This document shows positions 52,953 through 54,389 of a DNA stretch of 64,000 nucleotides, piece by piece. Made by a program: the position numbers and the translations under genes. Position 1 is the first letter of the stretch. Each line of letters starts with the position of its first letter. Under the pieces are notes generated by a model, which did no database searches, was not told where the DNA came from, and worked only from the letters and a program-made list of their open reading frames with translations. The stretch comes from Tepidisphaeraceae bacterium (GTDB lineage Bacteria; Planctomycetota; Phycisphaerae; Tepidisphaerales; Tepidisphaeraceae): the NCBI GenBank assembly GCA_035998445.1, contig DASYHQ010000018.1, positions 434,001 to 498,000 on the forward strand, written 5' to 3'.

Positions 52953-52981
52953 TTGACTGTAAAATTAGCGCCACGTAGATT
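52953..52981 (+). promoter_or_regulatory. Sigma-70-like promoter of the Lys-rich gene
   Basis: TTGACT (52953-52958) and TAGATT (52976-52981) are spaced exactly 17 nt in an AT-rich patch that starts near 52930. The start would be near 52988, just before the ribosome binding site, giving a short leader of about 25 nt. Confidence 0.6.
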
Positions 52982-52993
52982 TGACGATCAGGA

Positions 52994-53003
52994 AAGGAGG
53001 TGA
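52994..53003 (+). promoter_or_regulatory. Near-perfect Shine-Dalgarno of the Lys-rich gene
   Basis: AAGGAGGTGA matches the full anti-Shine-Dalgarno end of 16S rRNA over ten bases and ends 9 nt before the ATG at 53013. This is far stronger than the sites of neighbouring genes and indicates very high translation. Confidence 0.8.
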
Positions 53004-53012
53004 CGTTTAACC

Positions 53013-53093
53013 ATGGCAATGAAGAAGACCGCTAAGAAGGCCACGAAGAAGGCGACCAAGAAGACGACGAAGAAGACTACGAAGAAGAAGTAG
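53013..53093 (+). CDS. 26-residue Lys/Thr/Ala-rich histone-tail-like protein
   Basis: A 26-residue frame starting MAMKKTAKKATKK and consisting almost entirely of Lys, Thr and Ala in KKT/KKA units. It resembles the tails of histone H1, Hc1/HctB or AlgP. A promoter with 17-nt spacing, a perfect Shine-Dalgarno and a strong terminator frame it, so it is almost certainly expressed as its own unit. Binding to DNA, RNA or acidic proteins is likely. Such a short free tail is unusual, as most similar sequences are parts of longer proteins. Confidence 0.8.
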   Translation: MAMKKTAKKATKKATKKTTKKTTKKK

Positions 53094-53233
53094 TCCTTCG
53101 CGGAGGGCCCAACCGGTCCTCCTGCTGGAGCGCGTGGCACTTAGAAGTCTCCGGCGTCTTTCAGGTTTAATCGAACCCGTCACCCTTAACCGTTTTGGAC
53201 CCGGCTCCAACTTGGGTCACGAAACAACAGAAG

Positions 53234-53269
53234 CCTTCCGCCTGCCACGGCGGAAGGTTTCTTTTTTTT
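53234..53269 (+). terminator. Rho-independent terminator after the Lys-rich gene
   Basis: A 9-bp stem, CCTTCCGCC/GGCGGAAGG, with loop TGCCAC is followed by TTTCTTTTTTTT. It is the clearest terminator in the window. It lies 140 nt past the stop codon, leaving a 3' region with no recognised feature. Confidence 0.92.
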
Positions 53270-53350
53270 GCCTACTAATTCTGCGAATCGCCCTCCCACT
53301 CGATTTCCATCCTGTGATACTGTCGCCGTACCTAATCGAAAGGAACTGCG

Positions 53351-54163: not shown

Positions 54164-54233
54164 GCAGGGTCCGAGCGGCTGAAGGCGGTGGCGAAATCGC
54201 TGACGGTCTCGGCGATAATGCCCATCATCGACC

Positions 54234-54317
54234 CTCGTCATCCTGAGGTATTGCGAAGGATCTCTGCTGTCTCCGTGGAAGACGAAGAGATCCTTCGGAG
54301 TACCTCAGGATGACGAG
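54234..54317. repeat. Inverted repeat with CTCGTCATCCTGAGG arms
   Basis: The arms 54234-54265 and 54286-54317 match at 29 of 32 positions in inverted orientation, with a 20-nt loop. It has the TCATCCTGAGG...GAAGGATCTC pattern seen also at 39723 and 55277. It lies between the dismutase and FRG genes. Confidence 0.85.
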
Positions 54318-54389
54318 TACGCTTGGGGCGCGTTCTTCGTATTGGCCCGAGTTTGGTCCTTGGCCCACACCGCGCATCGAAGGTTACCC

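Follow-up and report, generated by a model that had tools for sequence, protein, structure and literature searches.

A lysine-rich micro-gene and its expression signals

The window analysed here is a 64-kb stretch (64,000 nt) of a planctomycete genome whose family, hereafter f1, belongs in or near Tepidisphaeraceae, in the class Phycisphaerae. In ordinary surroundings, with gpmI (TIGR01307) upstream and a superoxide dismutase (SOD) gene downstream, it contains a micro-gene for a 26-residue peptide, MAMKKTAKKATKKATKKTTKKTTKKK, with 13 lysines and a pI of 11 (Table 1). The peptide matches no Pfam or NCBIfam model, a result to be read in light of the poor scores that sequences so short obtain against profiles. 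A search of the same genome for a second copy returned two weak DNA matches (L002 and L003), neither with a lysine-rich ORF.

Table 1. Features of the micro-gene locus (positions in the window)
Feature	Position	Strand	Evidence or remark
Promoter, −35 TTGACT / 17-nt spacer / −10 TAGATT	52953..52981	+	9/12 of sigma-70 consensus; similar arrangement in relatives
Extended Shine-Dalgarno GAAAGGAGGTGA	52992..53003	+	12 contiguous nt complementary to 16S 3′ tail
ORF MAMKKTAKKATKKATKKTTKKTTKKK, 26 aa	53013..53093	+	Translation; orthologues in 16 families; coding selection
Extra hairpin GGAGGGCC-CAACC-GGTCCTCC	53102..53122	+	Directly 3′ of stop; insertion in the window's genome
Hairpin H1 (GCTGGAG / CTCCGGC), loop with CGTGGC (relatives: CGTGGCTCCAA)	53124..53155	+	7/7 pairs changed on both sides, 20 relatives
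Hairpin H2 (GTTTTGGACC / GGGTC-A-CGAAAC), loop GGCTCCAA	53192..53225	+	11/11 pairs with two-sided changes
Terminator hairpin H3, loop GCCACGGC (53244-53251), U-tract	53229..53270	+	Stability; loop kept across class; stem covaries
Inverted repeat, arms around CATCCTGAGGTA...GAAGGATCTC and GAGATCCTTC...TACCTCAGGATG	54225..54320		Between SOD gene and next ORF; resembles dispersed intergenic repeat

The preliminary description of this DNA had pointed to a sigma-70-like promoter with exact 17-nt spacing, a ten-base match to the anti-Shine-Dalgarno sequence and the strongest terminator of the window, and all three are in place. Taken alone, the promoter is weak (one sigma-70-like site in the 1-kb region versus 0.4 ± 0.7 in shuffled sequences), but TTGAC-N17/18-TAnnnT stands at the same distance in relatives, in the forms TTGAC-17-TACATT, TAGACT and TANCAT (f1, f3 and f14). 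The Shine-Dalgarno (SD) match is in fact longer than described: the 3′ end of the genome's own 16S rRNA, GGATCACCTCCTTTCT, pairs with 12 contiguous bases, which is the longest anti-SD match in the window (the runner-up has 10), and the pattern AAGGAGGTGA-N3-9-ATG occurs a single time in the 5.84-Mb genome. The terminator, with a 14-bp stem, reaches −25.2 kcal/mol, compared to −15.7 kcal/mol for the second-best T-run hairpin of the window. The placement of promoter and terminator suggests that the ORF and the RNA on its 3′ side are carried on one transcript. The extra hairpin next to the stop codon, which has GGAGG in one arm and CCTCC in the other, is absent from the aligned relatives.

Distribution of the micro-gene and composition of its product

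Among genomes taken at one per GTDB species, a terminator-derived pattern has 13 matches, every one of them in a planctomycete metagenome-assembled genome; almost all of these genomes carry the label Phycisphaerae, Phycisphaerales, Tepidisphaeraceae or Humisphaera. Looking for the same promoter, SD and terminator arrangement in related genomes had been proposed in the preliminary description, and a DNA search of 60 relatives recovered it in most of f1, in the order TTGAC-17-TACATT, AGAAAGGAGGTGA, a polybasic ORF of 18–37 residues, approximately 100–180 nt and a terminator with the loop GCCACGG. Class-wide, the super-SD pattern AAAGGAGGTGA-N2-9-ATGGC is present in 105 of 298 Phycisphaerae genomes, usually once per genome, and its reversed control had no match among the genomes listed. 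A polybasic peptide begins at 79 of the 98 super-SD starts that were fetched, as opposed to 1 of the 880 remaining ATGGC starts that these loci contain. These 79 peptides, together with the copies from f1 and f7, make up a set of 98 orthologues from 16 families.

The orthologues are 12–129 residues long, with a median of 26, and 59 of them do not exceed 30 residues. Their composition is dominated by lysine (56%) and alanine (21%), followed by threonine (8%), arginine (4%), valine (3%) and serine (3%); aromatic residues and histidine are absent from all 98, proline is almost lacking, and glutamate occurs once each in two. Nearly all (96/98) end in lysine or arginine, and 85 start with MAK. Super-SD polybasic peptides also occur outside Phycisphaerae, in further families of its phylum (f36, f85 and f96), where the GCCACGG hairpin is missing; these are 13–31 residues long, for instance MAKKKAASKKKKK (loci L240-L242, L245 and L248). 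Two f1 genomes, G012 and G017 (L014 and L025), have no match to the micro-gene and carry instead an H1-like protein of ~100–110 aa, beginning with MAKASKSTKK... and MAKKTAKK..., respectively, without a strong SD, possibly as a replacement.

Overall, the comparisons indicate that the lysine-rich micro-gene is real, protected in evolution and present across Phycisphaerae, where it usually appears to have the strongest ribosome-binding site and to be followed by a conserved RNA hairpin.

Selection acts on the encoded peptide

In 42 related pairs, all indels within the ORF (42/42) are multiples of three, compared with only 7 of 27 just downstream of the stop codon. Mismatches at codon positions 1, 2 and 3 number 96, 94 and 306, respectively, and pN/pS equals 0.15 in 16 equal-length pairs; the pairs in the selection test are phylogenetically non-independent, but the contrast is nevertheless large. 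As judged from these sequence comparisons, selection is acting on the protein of the micro-gene. The preliminary description had reasoned that an RNA conserved without the reading frame would indicate a small RNA; frame and RNA are both conserved, and its view of the locus as coding is not contradicted. A locus that makes nothing but a small RNA, its ORF being accidental, would account for the conserved RNA structure, but the indel pattern, the third-position excess, the pN/pS value and the conservation of the SD and AUG rule it out for practical purposes, and we assign it only a negligible probability. There is strong comparative support for the proposal that this is a genuine, translated gene for a polybasic micro-protein, one probably missed by standard gene finders.

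A conserved structured RNA at the 3′ end

The stop codon is separated from the terminator by 135 nt of conserved, structured and covarying RNA. This RNA, the GCCACGGC loop and the parA neighbourhood described below go unmentioned in the preliminary description. In f1, the 3′ region consists of two hairpins and the terminator, with two-sided changes in 28 of 33 pairs and pairing in 91.8% of the alignment cells. The covariation score is 0.448, compared with 0.191 ± 0.013 for shuffled controls and a maximum of 0.129 after sliding the partners by 1–3 columns; the underlying alignment of 20 f1 sequences is based on a covariance model and leans to the structure of that model, yet both kinds of control score far lower. 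With a covariance model of the 3′ region, 21 of 26 f1 genomes give a match and other families give weaker ones; all of the weaker matches inspected lie 3′ of polybasic ORFs, with the same SD in nearly all cases.

CGTGGC is found in the H1 loop at 15 of 17 f1 loci (0.7 by chance), GGCTCC in the H2 loop at all 17 (0.8 by chance), and the GCCACGG terminator loop follows the ORF at 74 of the 98 loci class-wide, where 1.9 would be expected; in this set, it is missing from f5, f20 and half of f16. Between ORF and terminator, f14 (L191-L215) and f6 (L139-L141) have a further hairpin whose loop is again CGCCACGGC, so that 14 of 20 f14 loci and 3 of 3 f6 loci have two copies of the loop per transcript.

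No Rfam family matches the 3′ RNA at the gathering level, the best being ctRNA_p42d with 21 bits against a gathering score of 50. A generic terminator motif can be dismissed, as TGCCACGGC-N8-13-T6 occurs once in the genome itself and sporadically elsewhere in the class. Pairing of the loop with rRNA was likewise rejected: the full complement, GCCGTGGC, is not found in 16S or 23S rRNA, and the short partial matches (for example CCACGG/CCGTGG in 16S rRNA) lie inside a helix and are unconvincing.

The probable role of the 3′ RNA is to stabilise the transcript or to regulate it, or else to give rise to a small RNA derived from the 3′ untranslated region; a protein may also recognise it by its GCCACGGC loop. 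A dual-function transcript with this RNA as the main actor, its loops (GCCACGGC and, in f1, the anti-SD-like TGGCTCC) pairing with targets and the peptide being secondary, would be in keeping with the strong covariation, the nearly invariant loops, and the frequency and doubling of GCCACGG. In 15 of 17 f1 loci, moreover, the H1 loop CGUGGC and the terminator loop GCCACG are complementary. This complementarity comes without two-sided changes and is absent outside f1, so a kissing interaction between the two loops stays at the level of an idea, if an attractive one for f1; the targets are only putative, the coding selection on the peptide is strong, and the peptide also occurs where the RNA motif is absent. 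We therefore regard a leading role of the RNA as improbable.

Genomic neighbourhood

In eight families, the micro-gene can be located directly upstream of a gene for a ParA-family ATPase on the same strand: f1 (11 of 18), f3 (7) and f6 (3), and also f2, f8, f10, f24 and f27. The distance is 180–550 bp in most cases, and a VanZ-like gene then follows parA (L010, L139, L178 and others). The best NCBIfam match of the ATPase is a ParA partition model, with a score below the cut-off. The window's own genome has lost the link: its parA (79% identity to the f1 query) sits on a different contig, between truA and a VanZ-like gene. The link is absent in f14, f16, f20 and f22, where the neighbours differ (read by eye, a divergent nadD-like gene and a CTP-synthase-like gene in the last three), and in the sampled genomes of f4, f13, f15, f18, f19, f21 and f23 no such peptide lies within 1.5 kb upstream of a parA homologue. 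As a matter of gene order alone, the recurrence in eight families would be suggestive of a connection to chromosome partition, and no more. A leader peptide or attenuator of the downstream gene appears unlikely, because a strong terminator intervenes and the downstream gene varies, being SOD here, parA in the eight families and others elsewhere.

Possible functions of the peptide

Translation and conservation of the micro-gene are well supported by the comparisons above, as are its structure, the fold of its RNA, its range across the class and its position next to parA in other genomes; its abundance, DNA as its main target and the role of its RNA are what we infer. The explanation that we favour, with moderate confidence, is a stand-alone minimal peptide resembling a histone H1 tail, probably nucleoid-binding and produced from a transcript with a conserved structured RNA 3′ end. 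Given the conserved initiation signals, a strong promoter of the sigma-70 type and an SD that is close to perfect, the peptide is probably made in large amounts; in the earlier suggestion of very high output, the part concerning signals holds, as these are near-perfect and apparently kept class-wide, and the part concerning abundance itself is deduced from them. To judge from its composition, the product would be an intrinsically disordered polycation, an H1-like lysine-rich tail with no other domain. It would most likely bind and neutralise nucleoid DNA by charge, acting as a protamine- or H1-like condensing or spacing factor. The ten-fold range of lengths at a constant K/R-A/T/S/V composition argues for charge-based binding with little demand on sequence, net charge rather than fold presumably carrying the function. 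DNA is suggested as the main target by the resemblance to DNA-binding H1-like tails (AlgP-type and Hc2) together with the parA neighbourhood. The mRNA would end in two lineage-specific hairpins and a terminator with the conserved GCCACGGC loop.

DNA is not the only ready ligand of lysine-rich peptides, which bind RNA and polyphosphate equally well. An RNA- or ribosome-binding peptide, which would coat RNA, aid ribosome assembly or hibernation, or chaperone its own 3′ RNA and others with a logic comparable to that of CcaF1, fits the size, charge and presumed abundance, and the conserved hairpins with shared loop motifs on the peptide's own transcript recall ccaF1-CcsR (PMC10253847). However, f36, f85 and f96 as well as f5 and f20 have the peptide without the GCCACGG hairpin, and the peptide therefore does not need this RNA; furthermore, parA is the recurrent neighbour, rather than any ribosomal or RNase gene. 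We consider RNA as the principal ligand rather unlikely. Binding of polyphosphate or another polyanion, with the peptide organising polyphosphate granules in the manner of the lysine-rich tail at the C terminus of Pseudomonas AlgP, appears more doubtful still: AlgP is associated with such granules and needed for their even spacing (PMC9239181), but its N-terminal helical domain and KPAA units are both absent from the micro-peptides, and the recurrent neighbours include no recognisable polyphosphate gene.

An extension of the favoured nucleoid-binding explanation can be offered only tentatively, namely that this is a bifunctional class-wide gene, which would combine a protamine-like chromosome-packaging peptide (down to 12 residues) with a conserved 3′ small RNA bearing the GCCACGGC recognition loop and acting in trans or exerting feedback on genes for nucleoid and partition functions, parA among them.

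Comparison with known systems

A paper on the Gemmata nucleoid reports that histone homologues had not turned up in genome surveys of planctomycetes, with HU-type proteins alone detected in Gemmata, and the mode of compaction was left open (PMC3440768). Our search for lysine-rich or histone-like small proteins of planctomycetes yielded no description of this gene in the open literature, most subscription papers being outside the search. With the micro-gene, Planctomycetota gain a candidate nucleoid peptide that is widespread and probably missing from annotations, and the combination of a super-SD, a polybasic ORF and the GCCACGGC hairpin is a simple signature for finding such genes. It is also a case for asking how charge is conserved but not sequence or length.

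Among small basic proteins, the ribosomal protein bTHX has ~26 residues and is easily missed by gene finders. It resembles the micro-peptides in length and charge, but its sequence is distinct and includes aromatic residues, which the micro-peptides lack. In layout, a close parallel is the ccaF1-CcsR locus of Rhodobacter, in which a small protein is followed by conserved hairpins and a terminator on one transcript (PMC10253847). Like the CcaF1-CcsR and CIN1 loci of alphaproteobacteria, which encode a DUF1127 protein and 'cuckoo' sRNA hairpins, the micro-gene combines a conserved ORF with a conserved RNA structure; there is, however, no homology: the micro-gene lacks DUF1127, is rich in lysine rather than arginine and has no Rfam match at the gathering level. 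C-rich, anti-SD-like loops are presumably common to the CcsR/CIN1 hairpins and the micro-gene RNA.

In bacteria, lysine-rich H1-like tails are known to form part of, or to constitute, proteins of well over 100 residues. The chlamydial H1-like protein Hc2, for instance, has 165–237 aa, its length being set by the number of repeats (PMC2848022). Lysine-rich repeats are common to the micro-peptides and the DNA-binding H1-like proteins of Chlamydia (Hc2/HctB) and Bordetella/Burkholderia (PF07382; NF038053, NF038052), and the Lys/Ala-rich repeat composition of the H1-like type characterises the set of 98 orthologues. The designation 'histone-tail-like' in the preliminary description is accordingly apt as regards composition and the longer orthologues; at the level of profiles, it finds only a weak match to the Pfam HC2 family in one long orthologue (L072, 76 aa), which scores 29.6 bits against cut-offs of 40 for PF07382 and 80 for NF038053. 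Compared with Hc2-type proteins, the micro-peptides are far shorter (12–30 aa in most), belong to a different phylum, and have other expression signals and a structured 3′ RNA. AlgP of Pseudomonas, which is associated with polyphosphate granules, shares the polycationic H1-like tail, and peptides of its KPAA repeats bind DNA in vitro (PMC9239181); it differs in having a helical domain at the N terminus and a proline in each repeat, whereas the micro-peptides are the tail alone and nearly devoid of proline. The micro-gene appears to be a variation on this type, an H1-like tail pared down to a free micro-peptide, with conserved expression signals and an RNA signature of its own: here the tail by itself would be the conserved gene, often shorter than 30 residues and in the extreme case only 12 residues long, and marked by an exceptional ribosome-binding site and a dedicated RNA structure.
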